This document shows positions 2-49,309 of a DNA stretch of 64,000 bases, piece by piece. The notes beneath the pieces are model-generated. The model did no database searches, was not told where the DNA came from, and was given only the letters and a program-made list of their open reading frames with translations. Position 1 is the stretch's first letter. Each line of letters begins with the position of its first letter. A program made the translations under genes and the position numbers. The stretch covers positions 56,973 through 120,972 of the forward strand of contig JAJEFG010000046.1 in NCBI GenBank assembly GCA_022820545.1. Direction: 5' to 3'. The DNA comes from Acidobacteriota bacterium. Lineage in GTDB: Bacteria > Acidobacteriota > Vicinamibacteria > Marinacidobacterales > Marinacidobacteraceae.

Positions 2-1813
2 CTCCCCGCCGTCGGTCGTGACGTGGACCTTGCCGTCCACGCTGCCGGCCCAGAGCTGGCCGGCCTCGAGCGGCGACTCGGCCAGCGCGAAGAGCACCGA
101 ACCGTCGAAGGTGTAGAGGTTGTCGATCGTGATGCCGCCGGAGTCCTGCTGCCGCGCCTTGTCGTTCGTGGTGAGGTCGGGGCTGATGGTCTCCCAGGAC
201 TGGCCCCGGTTCGCGCTCCGGTGGACGAACTGGCTTCCGACCCAGGTGGTCCCCGGTTCGTGGCGCGACAGGACCATCGGGAAGTTCCAGTGCCAGCGCA
301 CCTTCAGGTCGGCGGGCGCCCAGCCGTATCCCGCCTCCGGCCATACCCGGATGTCCCGGACGTGGCCGGTACGGTCGTCGTAGATCTCCAGCCCGCCGTC
401 GTAGCAACCGGACCAGACCATGTTGTCGTCGTGCGGTTCCGGGGTGGCCCAGCCGCTCTCGCAGCCCCCGACCCCGTGCCAGAGCCCGAGCGGAATCCCG
501 CCGCCGGGGGTGCGGCTGGGGCCCCGGTAGGAGTAGCCGTCCTGGCGGTTTCCGTAGACCCGGTAGGGGATCCGGTCGTCCACGGTGACGTGGTACATCT
601 GGGCCACCGGCGGCACCACCCGGCGCCAGCTCTCGCCGCGGTTCTCGGAGATGCTGCCGCCCCCGTCGTGTCCGACCAGGATGCGCTCCGGCATCCAGGG
701 GTCCACCCAGACGTCGTGGTTGTCGCCGCCGGCGCGGTAGGAGGTCTCGATCAGCGTGCGGCCGCCGTCCACGGTGGTGCTGAAGAGCACCGAGGCGAAA
801 TAGACGCGGTTGGCGTCCGCGGAATCCACGGCGATCCGGACGTAGTAGGGCGCCCGTTCGGCGAGATCGTGGTGGGTCATCATGAGCCGCCAGGAATCGC
901 CGCCGTCGTCGGAGCGATAGAAGCCGGGGCTCACGTCCTCGATCAGGGAGTACCAGCGATCGGGATCGCTGGGGGCGATGGCGACCGCCACCTTGCCGAT
1001 GGGATGCCCCTCCCCGCCGGGGAGCCCCCGGCCGCCGCCGTCGTCGGTTTTCTCACCCGAAATCCGTTCCCACGAGCCGCCCCCGTCACGCGAGCGGTAG
1101 AGCCCGCTGCCCGGCCCGCCGCTCCGCAGGCCGCCGGTATCGATCCGGAGCTGCCACATCCCGGCGAGGAGACGCTCGGGATGCCGGAGGTCCATGGCGA
1201 GATCGGAGCAGCCGGTGTTCTCGTCCACGTGGAGGACCAGCTCCCAGTTGGCGCCCCCGTCCCGGGTTCGATAGACGCCTCGCTCCGGCTGCGGCGCGTA
1301 GGAGTGGCCGAGCGCGCACGCGTACACCAGGTTCGGGTCCTCGGGATGGACCAGGATCCGCGCGATGCGCCCGGTGGCCTCGAGGCCCCGGTGGTGGAAC
1401 GACCGTCCGCCGTCGGTGGAGCGATAGATGCCGTTCCCCATCGCGAGCGCCGGCCGGATGATGAACGTCTCTCCGGTCCCGGCCCACACCTGCCCGGGAT
1501 GGGACGGTGAAACGGCGAGCGCGCTGATGGAAGCCGCCTCCTGGTCGTCGAAGACCGGCTCCCAGGTGACCCCGCGGTCGCTGGTCTTCCAGATCCCCCC
1601 GGATGCAGCCCCGAAATAGATGACGTCGGGGTTGCCCCACTCGCCGGCGGCGGCGCTCAGCCGGTTCCCGTCGGGCCCGATCGTGCGCCAACCGAGGCCG
1701 CCCAGTTGCGGAGGATCGATCGTGACGGGCTGCGCGGAGACCGCGTTCGGGAGGGGCTGCAGGAGGCACAGAGCCAACCAGAGAACGAGACGAACGGGGA
1801 GGCGATCCGGCAT
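2..1813 (-). CDS. BNR/sortilin-like beta-propeller exoprotein, partial at window edge
   Basis: This large minus-strand gene is absent from the ORF track because its stop lies beyond the window. It starts at an ATG at 1813 and stays open for 604 codons to the edge. The N-terminus is a signal peptide (LVLWLALCLLQ...VSAQP). The mature part has repeated BNR/Asp-box-like motifs such as IWKTSDRGVTW, IYRSTDGGRSF, VYRTRDGGANW and LYRSRDGGGSW. These mark the VPS10/sortilin-type or exo-sialidase-like beta-propellers that bacteria secrete in many paralogs. No substrate can be assigned; sialidase activity should not be assumed. The plus-strand 495-aa ORF over it is a shadow. Confidence 0.85.
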   Translation of the reverse strand, partial: MPDRLPVRLVLWLALCLLQPLPNAVSAQPVTIDPPQLGGLGWRTIGPDGNRLSAAAGEWGNPDVIYFGAASGGIWKTSDRGVTWEPVFDDQEAASISALAVSPSHPGQVWAGTGETFIIRPALAMGNGIYRSTDGGRSFHHRGLEATGRIARILVHPEDPNLVYACALGHSYAPQPERGVYRTRDGGANWELVLHVDENTGCSDLAMDLRHPERLLAGMWQLRIDTGGLRSGGPGSGLYRSRDGGGSWERISGEKTDDGGGRGLPGGEGHPIGKVAVAIAPSDPDRWYSLIEDVSPGFYRSDDGGDSWRLMMTHHDLAERAPYYVRIAVDSADANRVYFASVLFSTTVDGGRTLIETSYRAGGDNHDVWVDPWMPERILVGHDGGGSISENRGESWRRVVPPVAQMYHVTVDDRIPYRVYGNRQDGYSYRGPSRTPGGGIPLGLWHGVGGCESGWATPEPHDDNMVWSGCYDGGLEIYDDRTGHVRDIRVWPEAGYGWAPADLKVRWHWNFPMVLSRHEPGTTWVGSQFVHRSANRGQSWETISPDLTTNDKARQQDSGGITIDNLYTFDGSVLFALAESPLEAGQLWAGSVDGKVHVTTDGGE

Positions 1814-1961
1814 GTCCGGTGGACGGTAGCAGCCCGTGGCTCGAACCATCCCGCCGCCCTTTATCCTTCCCGACCGCACGGCCGTCGTCCGCAACAGCCG
1901 GATACGCCGCGCGGTAACCACCACGAGCATTCCCCCCTCCTCAGACTGAAAGAGAAGACCG

Positions 1962-3422
1962 ATGCGTAACGCGCCGGAAGGCCTCCGCAACACCCTGCTC
2001 ATCGCGCGACGGCAGTTGGGTGCGGTCCGCCAGGACGGCTACGTCCTGTTCCTGCTGGGGCTGGTCGTCGCCTTGGGGCTGGTCGCGGCGCTGGGCGCCC
2101 GGCATCACGTTGCGAGCGAGACCGAGCAGCGCGACCGCTATCAGGCAATGGTCGATCGGCAGTGGCTGGAACAGCCCGAACGCCATCCGCACCGGGTCAT
2201 CCACTATGGGTTCCTGGTCTTTCGCGAACAGGCGCCGCTCGAGTTCGTCGATCCGGGGGTGAGCGATTACGCGGGAACCTCGATCTACCTGGAAGGCCAT
2301 CGCCAGAACACGGCCAACTTCGGCGAGGCGCGTCATTCCACCGGGATGACGCGCTTCGGACGCCTCACCCCGGCGAGCGTGCTCGCGCTCCTGTTGCCGC
2401 TCCTGGTGGTTGTCGCCGGTTTCGCCGCGGTCAGCGCCGAGCGAGAGGGGGGAACGCTCGGCGTCCTCCTGACGCAGGGGGCGACGCCGGCGCAGATCCT
2501 CGCGGGCAAGGTTCTCGCCACGGGAGCGGTAGGGGCAGTGGCGACCGTTCCGGTCGCGCTGGCCGTCGGCGTCATGGCCGGGCCCGGACTGGACAGCCCC
2601 GCTTCCGTCGCGCGGCTGGGCTCCCTCGCCGCCATCTACGGCATCTATCTCGCGGGCTGGGTGCTCGTGACGGTGCTGGTCTCGGCCGCCCGGACCTCTT
2701 CGCGGAGCGCTCTGGCGCAACTGCTCGCGCTGTGGGTGGTGATCTGCGTCGCCACCCCCCGCGTGGCGGCCTCCGTCGCCGGGGCGCTTCACCCGCTCCC
2801 CTCGCGCGCCGAGCTCACCGCACAGGTCGAGGCGGCGCTGAATGAGGTCGGAGACAGCCACCGCCCCGACGACCCCTTCTTCCTCTCACTCCGGGAGGAG
2901 TACCTGGAGCGCTACCAGGTCGGCGCCGTCGAGGACCTTCCGGTGAACTGGAGGGGGGTGCTCAGCCGGGAATCGGAATCGCTCACCAGCCAGGTGTTCG
3001 AGGACCACCGGCAGGAGTTGGTCGAGGGCCACCTTCGCCAGAACGGGGTCATGGCATGGGCGGGATTCCTCTCCCCGTACCTGGCGGCCCGGGATCTGTC
3101 GATGGGCATCGCCGGTAGCGGCCCGGAGGCGATGGAAGCATTCCTCGCCCAGGCCGAGGCGCACCGTTACACGATCATTCAGCGTCTCAACGAACTCCAC
3201 ATCCGCGAGATCCGGAACGAGAACGACCGGGCGCAACGGCTGTCGCGCGAACACTGGGGGCAGTTCCCCGTCTTCGGGACCGAGCCGCCACCCCTCGGTG
3301 GAGCGCTGGCGGACCGTCCCGTCTCGCTGGCCGCGCTCGGGCTGTGGATCGGTCTGCCGCTGACCGGACTCGGGTTGGCGCGGAGACGGCTGGCGCTGGT
3401 CGGCACGGAGCGGTCGTCGTGA
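1962..3422 (+). CDS. ABC-2 type permease, DUF3526 family (first of pair)
   Basis: 486-aa integral membrane protein. A first membrane segment lies at about residues 27-45 and a cluster of hydrophobic segments at about 140-270. After the first segment comes a long non-cytoplasmic stretch, then the hallmark AVSAEREGGTLGVLLTQG loop of ABC-2/DUF3526 permeases. The C-terminal half (SVAGALHPLPSRAEL onward) is the DUF3526 region and ends with another membrane helix. It overlaps the next permease by 4 nt (GTGA), so the two are translationally coupled. Such permeases normally follow an ABC ATPase, but the upstream neighbour here is an unrelated minus-strand gene. The exported substrate is unknown. Confidence 0.85.
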   Translation: MRNAPEGLRNTLLIARRQLGAVRQDGYVLFLLGLVVALGLVAALGARHHVASETEQRDRYQAMVDRQWLEQPERHPHRVIHYGFLVFREQAPLEFVDPGVSDYAGTSIYLEGHRQNTANFGEARHSTGMTRFGRLTPASVLALLLPLLVVVAGFAAVSAEREGGTLGVLLTQGATPAQILAGKVLATGAVGAVATVPVALAVGVMAGPGLDSPASVARLGSLAAIYGIYLAGWVLVTVLVSAARTSSRSALAQLLALWVVICVATPRVAASVAGALHPLPSRAELTAQVEAALNEVGDSHRPDDPFFLSLREEYLERYQVGAVEDLPVNWRGVLSRESESLTSQVFEDHRQELVEGHLRQNGVMAWAGFLSPYLAARDLSMGIAGSGPEAMEAFLAQAEAHRYTIIQRLNELHIREIRNENDRAQRLSREHWGQFPVFGTEPPPLGGALADRPVSLAALGLWIGLPLTGLGLARRRLALVGTERSS

Positions 3423-35507: not shown

Positions 35508-37202
35508 TCAGAAGCCCTTGGCGAGGCCGAGGCGGCGGGGGTCGGTGACCCCGTGGAGCTTGCCGGTGTCCGGGTCGCGCCAGACGATCTGCATCGAGCC
35601 GGTGTGCCAGTTGTAGGGCCCGAGGTCCTGGATCCGGATGCCGCGGGCCTTGAGGCCCTTCCGAACCTCGTCCGTAATCCGGGACTCGATCGCGAGCACC
35701 TGCTCGCCGCCGCGGAAGGCGAAGAAGCGCGGCGCGTCGGCGGCGTCGCCGGGCGTCATCCCGAAGTCGATGATGTTCACCAGCACCTGGGTGACGGGCT
35801 GGGGCGGCACCCCCGGCGAGCCGAGCGAGAGCCAGGGCACGCCGTCCTTCGCGACGATGGTCCCGGTGCTGTTCGGGCTGACGCGCCGGCCGGGTCCAAC
35901 CGTCCGGCCGGGGAAGCCGCTGCCGGTCGCCCGCACCCCGTCGAGGAAGACTCCCGGCGCGCCGCCGTGGCCGGTGTGGAGCGAGGTGATCCAGTTGCCC
36001 TCGGCGTCCACGATGACGTTGTGGTTGCTCTCGTCCACCATCGGCGGCGCGTCCGCCGAGCGCGCGATCCGCACCGGTTCCGGACGGCGGAGCGCCGCGG
36101 TGGCGGCGGGCGGCGTCAGGTCCACTCCCGGCACGACCATCGTGGTCCGCACGAAGTCCGCTCCGAACTTCGCGTAGTCCTTCGACAGCCACACTTCGAT
36201 CGGGATCTGGAACGCCAGCGGGTCGGTGACCCCGTAGCGCATGTCGGTCTCCACCCGGCCGAGCGTGCGGGTGAGGATCTCGAGGGTGTCCACCGACTCG
36301 GCGTAGTGGCCCATGCCCGCGAGGTCGAAGTTCTCGAGGATGTTCAGGTTGTAGCCGATCTGGATGCCGCCCTTCTTCGGCGGAGACTCGCTGAGGACCT
36401 CGTAGCCGCGGTAGGTGGAACGGACGGGGTCCGACCACCGCACCTCGAACGCCCCCATGTCCTCGAGGCTCACGCAATAGCCCTTCGCGCGGGACTTCTC
36501 GACGAACTTCCGGCCCCAGGCGCCGGTGTAGAGGTAGTCCGCTCCTTCGGAAGCGATCCCTCGTAGCGTCTTCGCCATCGCCGGCATCTTCCAGAGGTGC
36601 CCCACGGGGACGAGATGGCCGTCCGGCATGTAGTGCGCCCGCGCCTCGTCGTTCTGCTGGATGAGGTCGCCGGTCTCCCAACTGTTGTAGTTGTTCGCGT
36701 ACATGAAGGAGGTAACCAGCACCCCTTCGTCCGCCGCCTTGATGGCCGGTTCGAGGTACTCGGCCCACGCCTTCGTCCCGAAGCGGTCGGCCAGCGCGCC
36801 GAGGCCCGCGACCTTGCCCCCGATGGCGACCTGGGAGGGATCGCCCTCGCCGCAGCGGCCGGCGAGCGGCCGCTCCGAGTAGGACTCGAAGACGGTGTAG
36901 TCACCGGTTGACGCGTCGTAGTAAAGGCCGCCCATGGCGCCGAAGAGGCTCACCTGGTGGTAGTCCACAACGTTTTGGAGGAAGACCGCGGTGACGAAAG
37001 CGTCGATGGCGTTCCCGCCGTTCCGGAGCACTTCGAGCGCGGTCTCGGTGACGATGGGGAGCTGGGTGCTCACCATCACCGAGTCGCCGACCGACTCCGC
37101 CTTCGGCCCCTGGTTGTAGAGGGCGTCGCGCGCGTCGGGCGGGTTCTGGCCGGACGCCAGGGCGGCGGCCAGCAGGCACGTCGTTAATGTGAGAAATCGC
37201 AT
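35508..37202 (-). CDS. Gamma-glutamyltransferase family protein, paralog 1
   Basis: 564 aa. The track counts from a TTG at 37208; the ATG at 37202 behind AGAGG is better. A signal peptide (MRFLTLTTCLLAAALASGQ) precedes a GGT Ntn-hydrolase body with NGGNAIDAFVTAVFLQNVVDYH and EVLSESPPKKGGIQIGYNLNILENFDL. The autoprocessing site, normally TTH-S-VVD, reads SNHNVIVD, with Ser where the Thr nucleophile should be. The later PGG glycine pair is PGVPPQ. It probably acts on gamma-glutamyl or other peptides in the periplasm. It is the most downstream of three tandem paralogs, 110 bp after paralog 2 with repeat G between. Confidence 0.85.
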   Translation of the reverse strand: MRFLTLTTCLLAAALASGQNPPDARDALYNQGPKAESVGDSVMVSTQLPIVTETALEVLRNGGNAIDAFVTAVFLQNVVDYHQVSLFGAMGGLYYDASTGDYTVFESYSERPLAGRCGEGDPSQVAIGGKVAGLGALADRFGTKAWAEYLEPAIKAADEGVLVTSFMYANNYNSWETGDLIQQNDEARAHYMPDGHLVPVGHLWKMPAMAKTLRGIASEGADYLYTGAWGRKFVEKSRAKGYCVSLEDMGAFEVRWSDPVRSTYRGYEVLSESPPKKGGIQIGYNLNILENFDLAGMGHYAESVDTLEILTRTLGRVETDMRYGVTDPLAFQIPIEVWLSKDYAKFGADFVRTTMVVPGVDLTPPAATAALRRPEPVRIARSADAPPMVDESNHNVIVDAEGNWITSLHTGHGGAPGVFLDGVRATGSGFPGRTVGPGRRVSPNSTGTIVAKDGVPWLSLGSPGVPPQPVTQVLVNIIDFGMTPGDAADAPRFFAFRGGEQVLAIESRITDEVRKGLKARGIRIQDLGPYNWHTGSMQIVWRDPDTGKLHGVTDPRRLGLAKGF

Positions 37203-37248
37203 GGTCAAACCTCTGCGCCATCGCCGCTGATCGGCGGCGCGCGGGTTT

Positions 37249-37294
37249 CGCGGCCCTGGCGGGCCGCGATGCCGGCCGGAGGCCGGCGCTCCGA
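37249..37294 (+). repeat. Two-hairpin interspersed repeat, type 1, copy G
   Basis: Left hairpin CGCGGCCC-TGGC-GGGCCGCG, core GCCGGCC-GGA-GGCCGGC, tail GCTCCGA. It lies between GGT paralogs 1 and 2. Confidence 0.85.
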
Positions 37295-37318
37295 AGCGGC
37301 GTACTTGTGCACGGGCGG

Positions 37319-39019
37319 TCAGTAGCCGACGACGACGCCGAGACGCCGTGGGTCCGTGGCCCCGTGGAGCTTGCCGTCGTCACCGCGCCAGATGATCTGC
37401 ATCGAGCCGGTGTGCCAGTTGTAGGCGCCGAGGTCGGTGATCCCGATCCCGCTCTTCTTCAGGCCCGCGCGGACCGCGTCGGAGATGCGGGACTCGATCT
37501 GAACGCCGCGTTCGCCCCCCCGGAAGGCCCAGAAGCGCGGCGCGTCGGCCGCGTCCTTCGGGTGCATGCCGTAGTCGATGATGTTCACGAGCACCTCGGT
37601 GACCGGCTGCGGCGGCGAACCCGGGGTCCCCATGGCGAGCCAGGGCTTGCCGTCCTTCGCCACGATGATCCCGGTGATCGGCAGCACCAGGCGGCGGCCG
37701 GGACCCGCGGTGGCGGCGCGCGCGGTGCTCCCCGTCGCCCGCACCCCGTCGATGAAGATGCCCGGCGCCCCGCCGTGCCCCGTGTGGAGCATGGACACCC
37801 AGTTGCCGTGCGAGTCCACGATGACGTTGTGGTTGCTCCCGAGATCCGCGGTGTCCGCCCCGCCGGCGCCCGGCGGGAAGAGCGAGGCCGTCATGTCGGG
37901 GGTCTCGCTGTTCGAGAGGTCCACGCCGTCGAGCAGCATCGTGTTCTCGACGAAGGTGGCCCCCAGTTTTCCGTACTCGTCGGAGAGCCAGAGATCCGTG
38001 GGCATCTTGAAGTTGAGCGGGTCCTTGATGACCCAGCGCGTCTCGTCGGAGACCCGGCCGAAGGCCCGGATCATGATCTCGAGCGCCTCGGGGGACTCGC
38101 TGTAGTGCCCCATGCCCTTCAGGTCGAAGTTCTCGAGGATCTTGAGGTTGCTCCCCACGATGACCCCACCCGTGTCGGGCGGCGGCGAACCGTAGAAATC
38201 AAGCCCGCGGTACGTGAACTTCGTCGGGTCGTCCCAGTGCGGCTTGTACTCCGCCATGTCCTGCATGCTGACCGCGAAGCCCTTCGCGTTCGCGGCCTTC
38301 ACGAACTTCTCGGCCCAGGCCCCGGTGTACATGTAGTCGGCGCCCTCGGAAGCGACCATCTTGAGGTGCTCGGCGAGCGCCGGCCGCTTCCAGCGCTCGC
38401 CCACCGGCACCAGGTGGCCGTTCGCCATGTAGGCCTCGCGCGCCTCGGGGTTCTTGACGAGGTCCCCCTGCTCCATCAGGTTGTAGTTGATGCCGTACAT
38501 GAACGAGGTGACGATGGCGCCTTCCGTGGCCGAGGCGATGGCCGGCTGCAGGTACTGCGACCACTCCATCGTCCCGCTGCCGTAGCGCTCCGCGATCGCT
38601 TCGAGGCCGCGCACCACGCCGCCGATGGCGACCTTGGAGACGTCGCCGTGGTCGTGGCGGTCGGCGCGCGGGCGCTCCGAGACCGCGTTCAGCGACCAGT
38701 AGGTGTCTGTGGCCGCGTCGTAGCCGATGACGGACATCGAGCCGAAGTGCGAGACCTGGTGGAAGTCCTGGACGTGCTGGACGAAGACGGCGGTCACCAT
38801 GGCGTCCACCGCGTTGCCGCCGTCCCTCAAGACCTCGAGCGCCGCGTTGCTGACCACCGGAAGCTGGGTGGCCACCATGACCGAGTCGCCGGTGACGGTC
38901 GGCTTCGGTCCCTGGTTCAGTTGCGGATCGGGTCCGTTCTGCGCCATCCCGGTGGTTGCGAGAGCCAGCGCCCCCGCGACGACCAGGAATCGAATGAATG
39001 TAGAGCTTGTTCTCATCAT
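37319..39019 (-). CDS. Gamma-glutamyltransferase family protein, paralog 2
   Basis: 566 aa from the ATG at 39019 behind GGGGAGGAG. Signal peptide FLVVAGALALATTGMAQ. Same plan as paralog 1: NGGNAVDAMVTAVFVQHVQDFH, PPPDTGGVIVGSNLKILENFDL, nucleophile region GSNHNVIVDSHGNW with Ser in place of Thr, and GTPGSPPQPVTEVL. The gap to paralog 3 is 18 bp. The three copies are diverged but colinear over their whole length, so they come from tandem duplication and are all under selection. Confidence 0.85.
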   Translation of the reverse strand: MMRTSSTFIRFLVVAGALALATTGMAQNGPDPQLNQGPKPTVTGDSVMVATQLPVVSNAALEVLRDGGNAVDAMVTAVFVQHVQDFHQVSHFGSMSVIGYDAATDTYWSLNAVSERPRADRHDHGDVSKVAIGGVVRGLEAIAERYGSGTMEWSQYLQPAIASATEGAIVTSFMYGINYNLMEQGDLVKNPEAREAYMANGHLVPVGERWKRPALAEHLKMVASEGADYMYTGAWAEKFVKAANAKGFAVSMQDMAEYKPHWDDPTKFTYRGLDFYGSPPPDTGGVIVGSNLKILENFDLKGMGHYSESPEALEIMIRAFGRVSDETRWVIKDPLNFKMPTDLWLSDEYGKLGATFVENTMLLDGVDLSNSETPDMTASLFPPGAGGADTADLGSNHNVIVDSHGNWVSMLHTGHGGAPGIFIDGVRATGSTARAATAGPGRRLVLPITGIIVAKDGKPWLAMGTPGSPPQPVTEVLVNIIDYGMHPKDAADAPRFWAFRGGERGVQIESRISDAVRAGLKKSGIGITDLGAYNWHTGSMQIIWRGDDGKLHGATDPRRLGVVVGY

Positions 39020-39037
39020 GCTCCTCCCCTGTTGTGT

Positions 39038-40726
39038 TCAGTGTCCAGCGGCATGTCCGAGCCGTCTCGGGTCGCTGACCCCGTAAAGCTTTCCGTCGTC
39101 ACCGCGCCAGATGATCTGTATCGAGCCGGTGTGCCAGTTGTAGTCGCCGAGTTCCTCCATCGCGATGCCGCTTCGCGCCATCCCCCGCCGGACCTCGTCG
39201 GAGATCCGCGATTCGATGCGGAGCACCCGCCGCTCGGTCTGTCCGTAGAGGAACGCCCAGAAGCGCGGCGCGTCGGCCGCGTCCTTCGGATGCATGCCGA
39301 AGTCGAGGATGTTCACGAGCACCTCGGTCACCGGCTGTGGCGGGAACCCCGGCGTTCCGAGCGAGAGCCAGGGCTTGCCGTCCTTCATCACGAAGACCCC
39401 GGTGACCTCGGCGAGGATGCGGCGACCCGGACCCATCGTCTCGGCCTTCACCCCGCTGCCGGTGGCCCGGACCCCATCGATGAAGATCCCCGGGGCGCCG
39501 CCGTGTCCGGTGTGTAGCGAACTGATCCAGTTCCCCTCGGCGTCAACGATCACGTTGTGGTTGCTGCCGAGGGTCATCGCGGCGGCGACGTTCGTTCCGC
39601 CCGCCTCCCTCTCCATCATGGCCGTCAGGTCCACCCCCGGCTGCGGCATCGTCTGCCGGACGAATTCGGCGCTCAGCCGCGCGTACTCCTTCGAGTTCCA
39701 GAGCTCGTAGGGGTTCCGGTAGGCGGCCGGGTCCTGGATGGACCACTTCATGTCGGACTCGACCTTGCCGAAGCTCCGGACCATGATCTCGAGGGTCTCC
39801 GGGGACTCGGCGAAGTGCCCGGTCTCCGTGAGATCGAACTGCTCCAGCACGTTCAGGTTCTGCCCGACCAGGAGCCCGCCCTTGTTGGGAGGCGGCTCGA
39901 CCAGGATCTCGTGGCCCCGGTAGGTGAAGCGGGCCGGCTCGAACCAGCGCGTCTCGTACTCGGCGAGGTCCTCGAGCGTGACGCAGAAACCGCGCCGCGT
40001 CGCCTGTTCCACGAACTTCGTCGCCCACTCGCCCTGGTAGAGATGATCGGCGCCGTGCTCGGCGACCGCCCGGAGAGTCGCGGCGAGGGCCGGCATCTTC
40101 CAGGTCCCGCCGACCGGGACCAGGTGGCCGTCGGGCAGGTAGAACGCGCGCGCTTCCTCGTTCCGCTGGATCAGGTCCCCGTTCTCCCAGAGGCTGTAGT
40201 TGTTCGCGTACTGGAAGTTCGTGACCAGGACGCCGTCTTCCGCGGCAGCGATCGCAGGTTCCAGGTAGCCCGCCCAGGGTTTCGTCCCGAAGCGGTCGGC
40301 GAGCGACTCGAGCCCGCGCACCGTGCCGCCGATGGCCAGCCGGCCCACCCGCTTGCCGTCCCCGCAGCGGTCGGCCCGCGGCCGTGCCGAGAAGGCATTG
40401 AACGCGTAGGTCGTCCCGGTGGCCGCCTCGTAGTAGAGGCCGGACATCGCCCCGAAGTGCGAGACCTGGTGGTAGTCCTCGACGTGCTGGAGGAAGACGG
40501 CGGTGACGAACGCGTCCACCGCGTTCCCGCCGTCCTCCAGCACCCGGACCGCCGCCCGGGTCACGTTCGGGAGCTGGGTCGCGACCATCCCGCCGTCGGA
40601 GGTAGCCACGGCTTTCGGCCCCTGGTTCAGCAGCGGATCGCGGGAACCGCCCGTCTGGGCGAGCGCCGGCGCCGATGCGGCCAGCAACACGGCGAGCGCC
40701 AGGCCGCCGGGAAGCGCGTCTTTCAT
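39038..40726 (-). CDS. Gamma-glutamyltransferase family protein, paralog 3
   Basis: 562 aa from the ATG at 40726 behind AGGAG; the track's 1155-aa ORF is a fusion with a shadow of the DUF885 gene. Signal peptide GGLALAVLLAASAPALAQ. Key segments: DGGNAVDAFVTAVFLQHVEDYH, VEPPPNKGGLLVGQNLNVLEQFDL, GSNHNVIVDAEGNW with Ser at the nucleophile place, and GTPGFPPQPVTEVL. It is the first of the three copies after the DUF885 gene (14 bp). Together they would degrade gamma-glutamyl or related peptides in the periplasm. Confidence 0.85.
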   Translation of the reverse strand: MKDALPGGLALAVLLAASAPALAQTGGSRDPLLNQGPKAVATSDGGMVATQLPNVTRAAVRVLEDGGNAVDAFVTAVFLQHVEDYHQVSHFGAMSGLYYEAATGTTYAFNAFSARPRADRCGDGKRVGRLAIGGTVRGLESLADRFGTKPWAGYLEPAIAAAEDGVLVTNFQYANNYSLWENGDLIQRNEEARAFYLPDGHLVPVGGTWKMPALAATLRAVAEHGADHLYQGEWATKFVEQATRRGFCVTLEDLAEYETRWFEPARFTYRGHEILVEPPPNKGGLLVGQNLNVLEQFDLTETGHFAESPETLEIMVRSFGKVESDMKWSIQDPAAYRNPYELWNSKEYARLSAEFVRQTMPQPGVDLTAMMEREAGGTNVAAAMTLGSNHNVIVDAEGNWISSLHTGHGGAPGIFIDGVRATGSGVKAETMGPGRRILAEVTGVFVMKDGKPWLSLGTPGFPPQPVTEVLVNILDFGMHPKDAADAPRFWAFLYGQTERRVLRIESRISDEVRRGMARSGIAMEELGDYNWHTGSIQIIWRGDDGKLYGVSDPRRLGHAAGH

Positions 40727-40740
40727 TCGGCTCTCCTGTC

Positions 40741-42366
40741 TCAGTTCGTCGGTCTCGCGAACAGGTCCCGGACCTCGTCGTCGTGGCCGGTCATCTCCCA
40801 GCGGATGAGCGAGATCGGGATCCAACCGGAAGCGAGGAACTCGTCGTGGAACTCCTTCAGGTCGAACTCGTCGCCGAGCTGCAGTGCCCTGTCCATGAGG
40901 AGTTCCTCGATCTGGAGCTTCCCCATCTGGTAGGCGATCCCCGAACCCGGGGTCTTCAGATAGATCTCGGCGTCCACCCGGGCCACGTCCTGGTCCATGA
41001 AGGGCGTGTTGTCCGCCATGAAATCCACCGCCTGCTGGACGGTGAATTCGTTCGTGTGCATCAGGGCTTCGGCCCCGTTCCGCACCGCCCGGGCGATCTG
41101 GAAGATGTAGTAGAGCTCGCGGGTGCGCGGCAGCTCGTCGAGGAACCCGGCCTGGAGCATCATCTCCTCGAGATAGAAGGCCCACCCCTCGATGCGGCCG
41201 CGGTCGCGGTAGGCGCCGCGGATCGAGGAGCGGTTCGGCCCCGGTTCCCGGCTCCGGAGCAGGCCGTCGAAGCGGTGGCCCGGGATCACCGCGTGCACAT
41301 GGTCGGGCCGCGGGTCGCGGTACTGGACCTCCTCCCAGAAGTTCCGCCGGCCGCCCTCGCGGACGATCCAGGGCACGTTCGTGCCGAACTCCCCGACGTA
41401 GTCCGGGATGGTGAGGATGTCCTGGTCCACCAGGAACTTCCGGACGTGCTCGTCGGCCTCCTCGATCCGCCGGGCGTAGTCCTCGGCGCTCGGCGCGGGG
41501 TCCACCGTCGGGAGACCCCGGTTCCTGTTGCGCTCGAGTTCGAGGAAGGCCCAGGACCGGTGGAGTTCGCGGTCGCCGATCCGGTTCACGTCGTCCCAGT
41601 CGAAGGGCATCATGGCGACGTGCTTCAGGTACCAGTCGTAGTGCCCGCGTCCGAGCCCGGAGGGCGCGTCCATCCGCTCCCGGTTCCCGGTGAGCCAGGC
41701 GTGGAACTCTCCGACCGCCGCCTGCGCCTCCCGCGCCGGGGGCAGGAGTTCGGGGTGGTGCGTTTCGAGCTGCGCGACCAGGTCTTCGTACCAGGCGATG
41801 GTCCCGGCGGGGGGGACCTCCCGGTAGGGATGGCCGTGGCCGACGCCGTCGGCGGTCACCAGGTTCCTCAGCGCCAGCATCGTCAACTCGCCGCCGGCAT
41901 CCGTGAGGTTCTCGCGGGCGAGGGACAGGAACGCGGGCACCCCGCCCAGTTGCATCTCGAGCCGGGCGATTTCCTCCCCGGCGAGCGGGAAGTCGTGGAA
42001 GGCGAGCCGCTGCACGGTGTCCACGTAGGTCCCGGGATCGCGCGCCCAGGGACGGCGCACCCGCAGGTCGTAATCGAGACGGTTCAGCCGCGCCCGCACC
42101 AGGAGGTAGTCCACCTGCCGCGGGACCGGCCAGCCGGCCGGATCGATGGCGCCGAGGCGGTCCGCGAAGCCGTCGAGCCCGGCCCGCTGCCGCTCGATGG
42201 TCTCCGGGCGGTAGTCCGGAAGGCCGTCCTCCATGGCCGGACGATCGAACTCGAGGAACTCGTCGTGGAGGGCCACCAGCGTCCCGTAGTGCCCGGCGCC
42301 GCCGGCCACGCCGCACGCGGTGGCTGCGACGGCGAGCGGAAGGGCGAGAACGGATCGACGCTTCAT
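40741..42366 (-). CDS. DUF885 family protein (peptidase-like)
   Basis: 541 aa behind GGAGG. The N-terminus (LALPLAVAATACGVAGG) is a lipoprotein-like signal with Cys after ATA. The body is mostly helical and carries the DUF885 signature: HAVIPGHRFDGLL, then RGRIEGWAFYLEEMMLQAGF, and further on YQMGKLQIEELL. DUF885 proteins resemble zinc carboxypeptidase-like helical metallopeptidases. The usual HE-x2-PGH is HAVIPGH here, so one metal ligand may differ. Overlap with the TPR gene by 4 nt and the GGT genes downstream point to peptide breakdown. Confidence 0.8.
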   Translation of the reverse strand: MKRRSVLALPLAVAATACGVAGGAGHYGTLVALHDEFLEFDRPAMEDGLPDYRPETIERQRAGLDGFADRLGAIDPAGWPVPRQVDYLLVRARLNRLDYDLRVRRPWARDPGTYVDTVQRLAFHDFPLAGEEIARLEMQLGGVPAFLSLARENLTDAGGELTMLALRNLVTADGVGHGHPYREVPPAGTIAWYEDLVAQLETHHPELLPPAREAQAAVGEFHAWLTGNRERMDAPSGLGRGHYDWYLKHVAMMPFDWDDVNRIGDRELHRSWAFLELERNRNRGLPTVDPAPSAEDYARRIEEADEHVRKFLVDQDILTIPDYVGEFGTNVPWIVREGGRRNFWEEVQYRDPRPDHVHAVIPGHRFDGLLRSREPGPNRSSIRGAYRDRGRIEGWAFYLEEMMLQAGFLDELPRTRELYYIFQIARAVRNGAEALMHTNEFTVQQAVDFMADNTPFMDQDVARVDAEIYLKTPGSGIAYQMGKLQIEELLMDRALQLGDEFDLKEFHDEFLASGWIPISLIRWEMTGHDDEVRDLFARPTN

Positions 42367-43956: not shown

Positions 43957-46842
43957 CTAGAACTGGAACCGGACCCCGATCCGCAGGATGCGGGGCGGCT
44001 CGATTCTGGCCGGCACCAGGAAGCGGTTCGCCAGGCCGTAACGGAGCGACTGCACGGCCGTGGTCCGGTTGATGTTCGTCAGGTTGAAGACGTCGGCGAT
44101 GACCCCGATGCGCATGTTGTCCCGGAACGGGAACTGCTTCTCGATCCGGAGGTCCACCTTGTTCCGGAAGTCGTGGCGGTAGGTGCCCCGCTGCACGCCG
44201 GCAACGTCCACGAAGCTCTCCACCACCATTCCCGGCACGTCGTCCCGGAAGAAGCGCACCGTATAGGCGCCGAGCGCCGGATCCGGAGCGAAGTTCTCGG
44301 GCGGCTTCAGCGGGAAGCCCGTTACCCCCTGGTAGTAGGCGCTCGCCACGATGTCGAACGGCAGCGTGTAGGTGGCCTGGAGCTTGAACTGGTAGGTCGC
44401 ATCCAGGTCCAGCTTCCCCTCGGCGTTGATGAGCGTGTTGGGGTTGTCGTAGATGGCGTGGCCGCCCCAGGTGGAGCCGTAGCTGTTGCCGATGTTCCCC
44501 ACGGCTTCGGAGACGTTGAGGGCGGCCATCAACTGCCAGCCGTCCTGCCAGCGGCGGCGCACCACGAACTCGACGCCGTTGTAGTCGCGGAAGAGCGGTC
44601 CGTCCTGCCCCGGGTTTGTCAGGAAGCGCACCCGGCCGGAACCCTGGAACTCAGGCTTGAGCGCGTAGATCGTCATCGGCGAGTTGTCGATGGGGTTCGT
44701 GACCGAGAGCGCGTTGTAGGCCCCGAAGGGGGTCCCGTCCGCCCCGAGCCGGCCCACGTCCACCGTCTCCATGATGTCCTTCTCGCGCTTGAAGATCCCA
44801 GACACCGAGACGACCAGGTTGTTCTCGAGCTGGTGCTCGACGCCGACGTGGAACGAGTCCACGTACGCGTTCTTCAGGTTCGGATCGGCGCTGCTGGTGT
44901 TCGGCTGGATGGCGTTGGAAATCAGCTCGCCCTGTTCCCCGTCCTGGAACACGAGGTCGCCGTTCAGGTCGAACCACTCGTACTCGTGGTGTCCACCGGA
45001 CCGCGGCAGGATGATCAGGGTGTCCTGGTTCAGGAGCGGCTTGTAGTACTTCCCGTAACTGGCCTTGACCGAGGTTCGGCCCTCGTCGCCCAGCGCCCAC
45101 ACGATGCCGGCGCGGGGCGAGAGGGAGTTGAACCCGATGAGGTCGCGGGTCTCGTCGAGAAAGACCTCGGGGAACCAGCGGCCGCCACCCGAACTCTGCC
45201 GCGGGTACCAGCCCTCGGTGGTCTCCCAGCGCAGACCCAGGTTCACGGTGAGCGCCTCGCCAATCGTCCACTGGTCCTGTGCGAAGAGAGCTACGCGGCC
45301 GATATTGGTCTGCTGCAGGTTGATCGGGTAGTTCATGAGGCGGACGCGGTAGGCCTCGCCGTTCAGCAGCCGCTGCTGCACGTCTTCCCCGTTCGGATAG
45401 AAGAACTCCCGCTTGAAGGGGGAGTGCTCCCAATAGACCCCGGTCTTGAACTCGTGGGAGCCGCCGAGGCCCGTCCGGAAGTGGGAGAGGGTCAGGTGGG
45501 CCTGACGGATATCCCGCGCCAGCGTGTTGCCGACGCCGCCGGTGAGGCCGCCGAAGGACTCCCCGGTGCCGATGTCCGTGTAGCCGACCGTGAAGTTCTC
45601 ATTGTTCGGGTATTCCTGGTTGAACGACTTCCACACCCCGTTGTACCGGGCCTCGATGATCGTGTCCTGGCCGATGAGCTGGGTCGCCTGCAGGTTCACG
45701 ATCCGCTGGTTCCGGAAGAAGATGTTCCAGGTCTCGGGGTGGTCGGCGTTCGAGAAACTGGTGACGTTGCCCGGCCACTTGTCCTGGTCACGGGTCGTGA
45801 AGGAGCCGCTGAACCGGGTGTTCGGGCCCATCTGGGTGGTCAGCTTGAAGAAGGAGTGGGTCTGGTTCGTCTCGAAGGGCTGGGTGGGCAGGAAGGGCTC
45901 CTGCTGCTCCACTTCGACGCGCCGGAGATTGCCGAAGAACCAGGCGCGGTCGCGCACGATGGGCCCGCCAAGGGTGCCGCCGTACTCCTGGTTCTTGATG
46001 TTGCTGGTCGCCGCCGGAAGGTCTTCCTCGAGCTCGGGGGTCAGGTTGTTCCATTCCGTCTGCTCGCCCTGGTAGTAGCCGTTGAGCGTTCCGGAGAACT
46101 CGTTGCCGCCGGACTTGGTGACGAAGTTGAACACCCCGCCCATGGAGAGTCCGAACTCCGCCGAGATGCCGCCGGTGGTGACCTGGACTTCCTCGATCAT
46201 GTCGATCGGGATCTCGGTGGAGATGTAGCCGACCGTGGTGTCGTTCATCCCCGCCCCGTCGATGTTGAACAGGTTGTCACGGGGCGAACTCCCGTGGACC
46301 GTCTGCGCCGGGGTGAAGGAGTACTCGCTGTCGAGGACGCCCGGCATCGACACCAGGAGGTCCGAATAGGTGCGCCCGAGCGGGATGTTCTCGATGAGGT
46401 CCACGTCCATGGTGCGCATCGCCTGGTTGCTTCGCACATCCACCAGCGGCGCTTCGCCGATGACGGTCACCATTTCCTCGACCCCGGAGGGGGAGAGGGT
46501 GGCGTCGAGCCCGATGTCGGTTCCGGCGTTCACCACCACGCCTTCGAAGGTCACGGTCTGGAACCCCGCGAGCTCGACGGTCACCGTGTAGGTGCCGGGC
46601 GAGAGCAGCGGGACGCGGTAGTCGCCCCGGGCCCCGGTGACCCGGGTCTCGGTCTGGATGTGCGACGGGCTCGAGAGGGTCACCGTGGCGCCCGGGATCG
46701 CGAGCCCCTGGTCGTCGGTGACCTCGCCGTAGATCGTTCCGGTCAACTCCTGCGTGAAAGCGGTTCCCGCCCCCAGCAGGAGCGCGACGCCCAGAACCAG
46801 CGCCGGACACGGCCTACTGGCCGTAAATCGTTGCAGCGTCAT
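43957..46842 (-). CDS. TonB-dependent receptor, Oar-like with carboxypeptidase-regulatory domain
   Basis: 961 aa behind GGAGGG. Signal peptide ALVLGVALLLGAGTAFTQ, then an Ig-like regulatory domain (GEVTDDQGLAIPGATVTLSSPS), a plug (GRTYSDLLVSMPGV, FNIDGAGMNDTTVGYISTEIP) and a barrel ending in Phe (RIGVRFQF). It is first of a minus-strand group with TPR, DUF885 and three GGT-like genes, so its ligand may be a peptide. A sigma-70-like promoter is visible about 300 bp upstream. The 1082-aa plus-strand ORF across it is a shadow. Confidence 0.9.
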   Translation of the reverse strand: MTLQRFTASRPCPALVLGVALLLGAGTAFTQELTGTIYGEVTDDQGLAIPGATVTLSSPSHIQTETRVTGARGDYRVPLLSPGTYTVTVELAGFQTVTFEGVVVNAGTDIGLDATLSPSGVEEMVTVIGEAPLVDVRSNQAMRTMDVDLIENIPLGRTYSDLLVSMPGVLDSEYSFTPAQTVHGSSPRDNLFNIDGAGMNDTTVGYISTEIPIDMIEEVQVTTGGISAEFGLSMGGVFNFVTKSGGNEFSGTLNGYYQGEQTEWNNLTPELEEDLPAATSNIKNQEYGGTLGGPIVRDRAWFFGNLRRVEVEQQEPFLPTQPFETNQTHSFFKLTTQMGPNTRFSGSFTTRDQDKWPGNVTSFSNADHPETWNIFFRNQRIVNLQATQLIGQDTIIEARYNGVWKSFNQEYPNNENFTVGYTDIGTGESFGGLTGGVGNTLARDIRQAHLTLSHFRTGLGGSHEFKTGVYWEHSPFKREFFYPNGEDVQQRLLNGEAYRVRLMNYPINLQQTNIGRVALFAQDQWTIGEALTVNLGLRWETTEGWYPRQSSGGGRWFPEVFLDETRDLIGFNSLSPRAGIVWALGDEGRTSVKASYGKYYKPLLNQDTLIILPRSGGHHEYEWFDLNGDLVFQDGEQGELISNAIQPNTSSADPNLKNAYVDSFHVGVEHQLENNLVVSVSGIFKREKDIMETVDVGRLGADGTPFGAYNALSVTNPIDNSPMTIYALKPEFQGSGRVRFLTNPGQDGPLFRDYNGVEFVVRRRWQDGWQLMAALNVSEAVGNIGNSYGSTWGGHAIYDNPNTLINAEGKLDLDATYQFKLQATYTLPFDIVASAYYQGVTGFPLKPPENFAPDPALGAYTVRFFRDDVPGMVVESFVDVAGVQRGTYRHDFRNKVDLRIEKQFPFRDNMRIGVIADVFNLTNINRTTAVQSLRYGLANRFLVPARIEPPRILRIGVRFQF

Positions 46843-47227: not shown

Positions 47228-49309
47228 TCAGGGGTCCGTGGCCACGGGTTCCCTCCCGAGGTGGCGCTCGAAGAAGTCGGCGCTCCGGCGGAAGACCTCC
47301 AGCCAGTTCTCGTGGCGGAGGAAGCCGTGGACCTCGTCGGGGAAGATCAGGAGTTCGTGCTCGACGCCGAGTTCCCGCAGCTTCTCCACCAGCTCGACGG
47401 TCTCGTTGAAGGGCACGTTCCGGTCGTCGTCCCCGTGGACGAGCAGCACCGGGGACCGCCAGCCGTCCACGGTGGCGAGCGGTGAGGACTCGAACGCCAG
47501 CCGCGCCGCCTCCGGGTGGTGGTCCGGTTCGTAGCTCGGATTGAAACCCTGGATGGTGCGGTTCCAGTCGTGGACGCCGTGGATGTCCACCCCGGCGGCG
47601 AAGAGATCCGACGCCCGGGAGAGTCCCATGGCGGTCAGGTAGCCGCCGTAGGAACCGCCCCAGAGCCCGATCCGGTCTCCGTCCACCGCGGGCATGTCGG
47701 CGAGGGTTCGCCCCGCCCCGAGCACGTCCTGGTGCTCGGCGCCGCCGCTCGCGCCGTAGCCCGTCGCCTCGCGGAACTCCATGCCGTAACCCGTGCCGCT
47801 CCGGAAGTTCACCGAGATCACCGTGAACCCGCGGCTCGCCAGGTACTGGTGGAAGGCGTAGCAGTTCGAGTAGTACCCCATGTAGTGCCAGCCGAGCAGC
47901 ATCTGCCGGCGCGAGCCGCCGTGCAGGAAGAGGACGCCGGGGCCGGGGGTTTCCGACCCGGCCGCGGGCCGGAAGAGCTGGCCGTGGATCTTCATGCCGT
48001 CGGCGGAGGCGAAGACCACCGGTTCCGGATCCACCATGTGCTCGAGCGGGAAATCGGCCGGGAAGGCGTCCGGCGCGAGGGCGCGCGCCTCACCGGCGGC
48101 CTGGACCATCGGCTGGAGCGGGCGGCGCCCGTCGCCCCCGAGGAAAGCGACCCCTCCCTGGACGGCGACCGGCAGCGTTTCGACGCCGGTCCCCGAGGTC
48201 AGGGCCTCGGCGGCCGATCCCGCGGTGAGGCGCCAGAGGTGGCGGCGGTCGATGTCTCCCTGGTTGGTGGCGGCGATCAGGCCCCCCTGCCCGTCCCTGA
48301 CCGCGTACTCGGTCTCGAAGGTCCCGGAGGTCAGCGCCTCCGGCTCCCCGCCCATGGCCGACACGGCGTAGAAGTGACGGTAGCCGGTGCGCTCCCAGGG
48401 AAAGAGGATGCGGCCGTCATCCGTCCAGTGGAGCTGGTCGGCGGAGGCGGTGCCGGAGAAGACGCTTCCCCTCCCGGGCTCCGCGCGGAAGACCTCCCGG
48501 CTGGTACCGGGGTTGTCGAGGGAAGCCACCCGGATGCTCCAGGGAGGGCCCTCCCGGTTCGGAACGAACATGAACCGCTCGAGCACCGGCGGCGTGCGCA
48601 GGAACGCCACTTCGCTCCCGTCGGGTGAGAAGGCCGGCGAGCCGTCGCGGTCCACCGCCGGGTCGAGGTAGTGGACCGTCTTCGCGCCGAAGTCGTAGAC
48701 GCCGACGAAGGAATGCGCCCCCCGCGAGGAGACGAACGCCAGCCGGTCGCCGCCCGGGGAGAGGCGCAGGTTGCCGAAGGAGCCCCGGCCGTGGATGAGC
48801 TGCTCGGGTTCGGCATCCGGGTCGAGGCTCACCTGCCAGACCCGGCCCCGGCGCACGAAGAGCAGCGCATCGCCGTCCGCAGTGAAGAGGGGAGAGGCGG
48901 CCGGCTCGGTGATGCGGCGGGGCGCCCCGCCCCGATCGATGACCCAGAGCGCCTGCTCCACTCCCGCCGGATCGCTCGTCGGGTTCGGCAGCTCGCCGGC
49001 CCGGTTGGGGCCGTCGCCGCGGATGAAGGCGATGCGGTCTCCGTCGCGGCTGAACGCCAGGCTGTGGATGGTCGTCCCGTCGTCGCCCTCGAAGGAGGTC
49101 AGGCGGCGTCCCGCGAAGCCGGGGGCGTCGGCCGCCCAGACGTTCCGCGCGCCCCGCTCGTCGAACACCCAGGCGACCCGGGAACCGTCGGAGGAGGCGG
49201 TCAGGCTCGTCGGAAACGGGGCCGAGAAGACCTGCTCGAGGGTGAACTGGGCCTCGGCGCCGGACGCGCCGAGGACCGTGATCCAGAGGAGGATGGCGAT
49301 CTGTCGCAT
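47228..49309 (-). CDS. S9 family serine peptidase (DPP IV/acylaminoacyl-like), exported
   Basis: 693 aa behind AGGAG, signal peptide AILLWITVLGASGAEAQ. The N-terminal half is a WD-like beta-propeller with TolB-type repeats (SPAFSPDGSEVAFLR, LRLSPGGDRLAFVSS). The C-terminal hydrolase has GGSYGG (Ser), LVHGDDDRNVPF (Asp) and PDEVHGF (His). It removes dipeptides or acyl-amino acids from peptides outside the cytoplasm. It lies 21 bp after the second P450 gene, so they may share a transcript, although their roles look unrelated. Confidence 0.9.
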   Translation of the reverse strand: MRQIAILLWITVLGASGAEAQFTLEQVFSAPFPTSLTASSDGSRVAWVFDERGARNVWAADAPGFAGRRLTSFEGDDGTTIHSLAFSRDGDRIAFIRGDGPNRAGELPNPTSDPAGVEQALWVIDRGGAPRRITEPAASPLFTADGDALLFVRRGRVWQVSLDPDAEPEQLIHGRGSFGNLRLSPGGDRLAFVSSRGAHSFVGVYDFGAKTVHYLDPAVDRDGSPAFSPDGSEVAFLRTPPVLERFMFVPNREGPPWSIRVASLDNPGTSREVFRAEPGRGSVFSGTASADQLHWTDDGRILFPWERTGYRHFYAVSAMGGEPEALTSGTFETEYAVRDGQGGLIAATNQGDIDRRHLWRLTAGSAAEALTSGTGVETLPVAVQGGVAFLGGDGRRPLQPMVQAAGEARALAPDAFPADFPLEHMVDPEPVVFASADGMKIHGQLFRPAAGSETPGPGVLFLHGGSRRQMLLGWHYMGYYSNCYAFHQYLASRGFTVISVNFRSGTGYGMEFREATGYGASGGAEHQDVLGAGRTLADMPAVDGDRIGLWGGSYGGYLTAMGLSRASDLFAAGVDIHGVHDWNRTIQGFNPSYEPDHHPEAARLAFESSPLATVDGWRSPVLLVHGDDDRNVPFNETVELVEKLRELGVEHELLIFPDEVHGFLRHENWLEVFRRSADFFERHLGREPVATDP

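Follow-up and report, generated by a model that had tools for sequence, protein, structure and literature searches.

Is the N-terminal Thr, which is conserved in all known gamma-glutamyltransferases (GGTs) according to a 2015 family analysis (PMC4568574), replaced by Ser in natural, working members of the family, and, if so, what would such proteins act upon? The question is raised by a locus in a 64,000-nucleotide stretch of contig JAJEFG010000046.1 from an Acidobacteriota bacterium (the entire analysed stretch is hereafter called the window), where three tandem PF01019 (GGT) genes with intact ORFs, encoding proteins of 562-566 amino acids (aa), occupy positions 35508-40726 of the minus strand. 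All three encode the peptide SNHNVIVD at the site where the nucleophile is expected:

35508..37208, minus strand: GGT-like copy A (PF01019, 5.7e-67)
36006..36029, minus strand: SNHNVIVD of copy A (Ser codon AGC, 36027-36029)
37319..39019, minus strand: GGT-like copy B, 566 aa (PF01019, 8e-69)
37814..37837, minus strand: SNHNVIVD of copy B (Ser codon AGC, 37835-37837)
39038..40726, minus strand: GGT-like copy C, 562 aa (PF01019, 2.2e-72)
39542..39565, minus strand: SNHNVIVD of copy C (Ser codon AGC, 39563-39565)

The three proteins match the Pfam G_glu_transpept profile over nearly its whole length, with 227-245 bits against a cut-off of 27, and are about 60% identical to one another (copies B and C are, respectively, 59% and 62% identical to copy A). 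The ORF of copy A opens with TTG and contains an ATG six bases further in, at 37202; its product is 566 aa long and consists of an N-terminal hydrophobic, signal-like segment, a large subunit and a small subunit of 173 aa, with the putative cleavage site located before S394, the residue that aligns with Thr391 of Escherichia coli GGT. The putative nucleophiles of copies B and C are S395 and S388, and the corresponding small subunits consist of 172 and 175 aa, so that all three fall inside the published GGT range of 170-195 aa (PMC8062742). A promoter and terminator scan yielded no match.

The assignment of Ser to the catalytic position depends on the alignment, for which we used MAFFT (121 rows) and the E. 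coli GGT precursor 2e0w as the reference. Because the latter carries the T391A mutation ('QATHYS'), its segment QATHYSVVD marks the nucleophile column, which in canonical rows holds the first T of TTH, TSH or TGH. The Ser of SNHNVIVD in all three copies sits on E. coli residue 391, in agreement with the nucleophile role that the preliminary description of the locus had proposed for it. The sequence identity to GGTs of known structure, about 26%, is low enough to leave room for a misalignment that would hide another Thr as the actual nucleophile. However, TTHYSVVDKDGN and SNHNVIVDAEGN align without gaps across the nucleophile stretch, and no conserved Thr is present just upstream of the Ser in the clade to which the copies belong. 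The AlphaFold2 model of copy C (37 sequences; mean pLDDT 87.2, pTM 0.89) likewise disagrees with such a shift: it adopts the GGT precursor fold of the Ntn type, and the strand that opens the small subunit (residues 388-394) begins precisely at the Ser, as expected of a small-subunit N-terminus. Residues 376-385, immediately ahead of the Ser, have pLDDT below 50, and this low-confidence linker, together with the strand that starts at the Ser, fits a flexible processing linker followed by an N-terminal strand. Compared with the PDB, the model gave its best matches with the uncleaved GGT precursors 2e0w and 4y23 (TM-scores 0.74-0.86), followed by 2nlz, 2i3o and LmbA. We consider the probability of a misalignment to be negligible.

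The Ser is not confined to the three copies in the window but characterises a larger clade as well as one or more additional lineages. All 41 distinct members of the clade that includes the window copies (hereafter, the window clade) carry Ser in the nucleophile column, compared with Thr in 88 of the 89 natural rows outside the Ser branches, the remaining row having Ala; the compared rows are homologues returned by searches rather than a random sample of the family. With this distribution, Ser in the nucleophile column is not a chance occurrence. The tandem triplet is present in 10 of the 10 genomes of the taxonomic family to which the window belongs (the source genome and nine relatives). In one genome of this family, the coding sequence of the third tandem copy is distributed over two frames (L021 8567-10345, G001:C111:1305-2998), which reflects either loss or an assembly error.

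The window clade spans Acidobacteria, Aminicenantes and Gammaproteobacteria. Among 396 sampled Acidobacteriota genomes, matches above 780 bits were detected only in the source genome (G000), G020, G021 and G142, and the next match dropped to 337 bits. The spread outside Acidobacteriota rests on plasmid records and one contig scan limited by the peptide patterns used, which added a sequence from Aminicenantes (L022) and several from Gammaproteobacteria, including Wenzhouxiangella (L023-L027); copy B groups with the Aminicenantes sequence (support 95/95). Copies from Lichenicola (Alphaproteobacteria) and from a Pseudonocardia plasmid read GSCELSIVD and GSCELSVVD, respectively. The latter (L142 5779-7650) lies in two overlapping frames, of which only the C-terminal piece is annotated. 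A second Ser family, with the motif SNHVTVVD or SCHVTAVD and Ser in 18 of 18 members (L009, L116-L118, L123, L126-L134, L136-L138 and L141), is represented in many Acidobacteriota, including the source genome (L009, contig C30). In this family, the first oxyanion Gly (G483) is also replaced, by Ser (GSPSxS). L009 itself has a Tat-like signal and adjoins an amidohydrolase gene.

To trace the history of the Ser, we built a tree without the nucleophile columns, from which two long-branch Ser rows (L032 and the second ORF of L117) were excluded because they join each other. In this tree, the window clade and the Lichenicola and Pseudonocardia sequences form one Ser group (95/88) that is sister (99/98) to a clade from Woeseiaceae and Gemmatimonadetes (L029-L031) with the motif TNHLV[IVL]VD, in which Thr is kept, and the second Ser family is placed elsewhere. 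A single clade of all Ser sequences is disfavoured by the AU test (p-AU 0.0196), with the qualification that the tested grouping was chosen after the tree had been seen and that some branches are long. Given this result and the minimum of two Thr/Ser changes on the tree, Ser appears either to have been gained twice or to have been gained once and then reverted.

Apart from the nucleophile, much of the catalytic core is in place. The equivalents of Thr409, His393, Asp398 and Gly483 (E. coli numbering throughout) are retained in copies A-C; across the window clade, no member deviates from H393, D398, G483 or R459, and the only exception at T409 is the divergent L115, which has Ser. Asn411 is replaced by His in all three copies. 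The oxyanion loops read as follows:

35790..35819, minus strand: SPGVPPQPVT of copy A (first Gly retained, second Gly replaced by Val)
37598..37627, minus strand: TPGSPPQPVT of copy B (second Gly replaced by Ser)
39326..39355, minus strand: TPGFPPQPVT of copy C (second Gly replaced by Phe)

Thus, the earlier claim that the Gly-Gly pair is altered (PGxPPQ) applies to position 484 only, whereas Gly483 is still present. The loss of G484 is less severe than it may seem because Ser or Ala also occupies this position in otherwise canonical Thr rows, including those of the Vibrio type, and the Bacillus licheniformis GGT in which the second Gly is changed to Ala retains 70% activity (PMC8062742).

The substrate pocket is changed to a greater extent than the preliminary description noted. 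Four columns that bind the alpha-carboxyl and alpha-amino groups of the gamma-glutamyl donor are changed or gapped in copies A-C: Asp433 falls within a deletion, and Arg114, Ser462 and Ser463 are replaced. The three copies score only 202-213 bits with the NCBIfam equivalog model TIGR00066, well short of its cut-off of 357.85 bits. Taken with the Ser in place of the N-terminal Thr and the incomplete oxyanion pair, these features set copies A-C, although members of the GGT superfamily, apart from GGTs in the strict sense and strengthen the earlier suggestion that their substrates may differ from glutathione. The same pocket residues are missing already in the Thr-bearing sister clade, so that the loss of the pocket is not tied to the Ser.

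These proteins might nevertheless be ordinary gamma-glutamyl hydrolases, in which Ser serves as an equivalent nucleophile and the glutamate is held by other residues. The overall homology to GGT is compatible with this possibility, neither R114 nor the Ser pair is found in certain GGTs from extremophiles (PMC8062742), and nearly all members of the window clade have an Arg (within xRP) a few residues past the R114 column. The xRP Arg could be a shifted carboxylate ligand; the R114 column lies in a loosely aligned loop. Against this stand the deletion of D433 together with the loss of both pocket Ser residues, the scores below the TIGR00066 cut-off, the loss of the same residues in the Thr-bearing sister clade and the presence of canonical GGTs, L001 (TTHFSVVD) and L002, elsewhere in the genome. 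On balance, continued gamma-glutamyl hydrolysis seems distinctly improbable.

The genes next to the triplet offer additional, if indirect, hints on function. On the same strand, along with a gene for a TPR protein, we identified:

40741..42366, minus strand: DUF885 protein (PF05960, 1e-43), upstream of copy C, with 14 bp between its end and the start of copy C
43957..46842, minus strand: TonB-dependent receptor with a carboxypeptidase-regulatory-like domain (PF13620, PF00593, PF07715), upstream
47228..49309, minus strand: S9 prolyl-oligopeptidase-family protein (PF00326, 7.2e-45), upstream

The DUF885 gene is probably an operon partner of the GGT-like copies. Its HExxPGH-type motif reads HAVIPGH, with the Glu lost, and this form is conserved in L015-L018, L020, L021 and L028; two other DUF885 paralogs in the source genome (L145 and L150) read HEAVPGH and HEGVPGH. 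Ser and sister homologues at other loci often have amidohydrolases (L009, L029, L030, L031, L142), M24 or M19 peptidases (L029, L030), an amidase (L023), an S9 peptidase (L142) or a DUF885 protein with a peptide ABC transporter (L143) nearby, and the neighbours of L022, L024, L103, L104 and L115 are unrelated to this set. The context suggests peptide or amide breakdown, although such neighbours may be common in these genomes; because the background frequency of amidohydrolases and peptidases may be high, it is weak evidence on the substrate.

Do these proteins work at all? The NG86 dN/dS values for ortholog pairs, 0.07-0.16, are what would be expected of working proteins under purifying selection. 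Among copies A-C, the values are higher (0.44-0.52), but we set these aside because dS between old paralogs in DNA with 70% GC is unreliable. We reject pseudogenization on the ortholog dN/dS together with the intact frames and the conserved synteny, and the view that the copies represent a functional variant class rather than decaying genes, already put forward from the window alone, is well supported, also by the presence of the triplet throughout the family and by the uniform conservation of the Ser.

In characterised GGTs, the Thr-to-Ser substitution strongly impairs processing and activity, with about 90% of the activity lost (Helicobacter pylori T380S, -92%; B. licheniformis T399S, -89%; PMC8062742), and the T421S mutant of the GGT homologue LmbA is dead (PMC5519988). 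The T430S mutant of Ant6, in turn, is still partly self-cleaving (PMC5519988) and, therefore, Ser can work in the GGT fold. In the open-licence PMC papers searched, we found no description of a natural GGT with a Ser nucleophile. The copies could be unprocessed pseudoenzymes whose retained GGT fold serves to capture a peptide or amide on the cell surface, with the Ser inherited without catalysis. The poor processing of the mutants and the missing second oxyanion Gly are in line with such a role, as is the DUF885 neighbour, whose lost motif Glu implies that the cassette could hold pseudoenzymes. A pure scaffold, however, should drift to Ala or Gly, and the window clade has kept the nucleophile hydroxyl along with H393, D398 and G483 without exception; the second lineage has also kept its Ser. 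We regard the pseudoenzyme scenario as unlikely, if less easily dismissed than a gamma-glutamyl activity.

Copies A-C resemble E. coli GGT (MEROPS T03/PF01019; 2e0w, 2dbx) in whole-length homology, precursor fold, T409, H393, D398, the first oxyanion Gly and small-subunit size, and differ from it at Thr391, in the pocket, in the second oxyanion Gly and in the TIGR00066 score. The Bacillus halodurans class IV cephalosporin acylase-type protein (2nlz) is similar in fold (TM 0.78/0.81) and along the whole sequence length, but is only 24% identical to the copies. LmbA and Ant6 (6j3a, 6j3i), actinobacterial enzymes that cleave C-C bonds, share the fold (TM about 0.78) and are precedents for GGT homologues with a reaction other than gamma-glutamyl transfer; they are processed ahead of the N-terminal nucleophile (PMC5519988), as copies A-C presumably are, but have a Thr nucleophile of their own (TCHLDVVD), a biosynthetic setting and only about 22% identity to the copies.

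Ser is the N-terminal nucleophile of penicillin G acylase and AHL acylase, which belong to family S45. PF01019 is the sole Pfam match of copies A-C, with no match to the S45 penicillin amidase family, and since S45 is a separate family, the Ser common to the two groups is convergent.

We consider it probable that copies A-C are Ser-type Ntn amidohydrolases that undergo export and self-processing and act on substrates other than gamma-glutamyl compounds, even with the impaired laboratory mutants, the dead LmbA variant and the missing second Gly counting against this reading. Judging by their hydrophobic N-termini, the precursors would be exported. Each would cut itself directly before the Ser, that is, after Glu in copy A and after Gly in copies B and C, and thereby free a roughly 19-kDa small subunit with an N-terminal Ser. 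This Ser would attack an amide carbonyl with the help of the Thr409 equivalent, His393 and the first oxyanion Gly, presumably via a Ser acyl-enzyme. In the absence of the residues that bind the gamma-glutamyl donor by its alpha-amino and alpha-carboxyl groups, the substrate hydrolysed outside the cytoplasm would be a different peptide or amide, and the DUF885 protein, the TonB-dependent receptor and the S9 peptidase perhaps act together with the GGT-like proteins. A wider generalization, namely, a broad and so far unrecognised set of GGT-fold Ser-Ntn hydrolases that arose through two separate Thr-to-Ser changes (or through one gain followed by one reversion) in pocket-less lineages and carries out amide chemistry undescribed for the family, appears to us to be evenly poised.

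Natural lineages in which the Ser has long been kept reveal the further changes needed for Ser to work, and the matched Thr and Ser sister clades provide a test set for these requirements. Copies A-C fall short of the equivalog cut-off, yet homologues of this kind, such as the Lichenicola Ser protein, are labelled gamma-glutamyltransferase in public records; bacteria with such genes may therefore be credited with more glutathione metabolism than they have.

Two further observations concern the family at large. Within its roughly 3.5 Mb, the source genome has 12 genes of the GGT family, canonical ones included. In G023, the ORF at 1501-3387 on the minus strand (L111), which accounts for the single Ala among the compared natural rows, reads ATSFSVVD, next to a close relative (L005) that reads TTSFSVVD.
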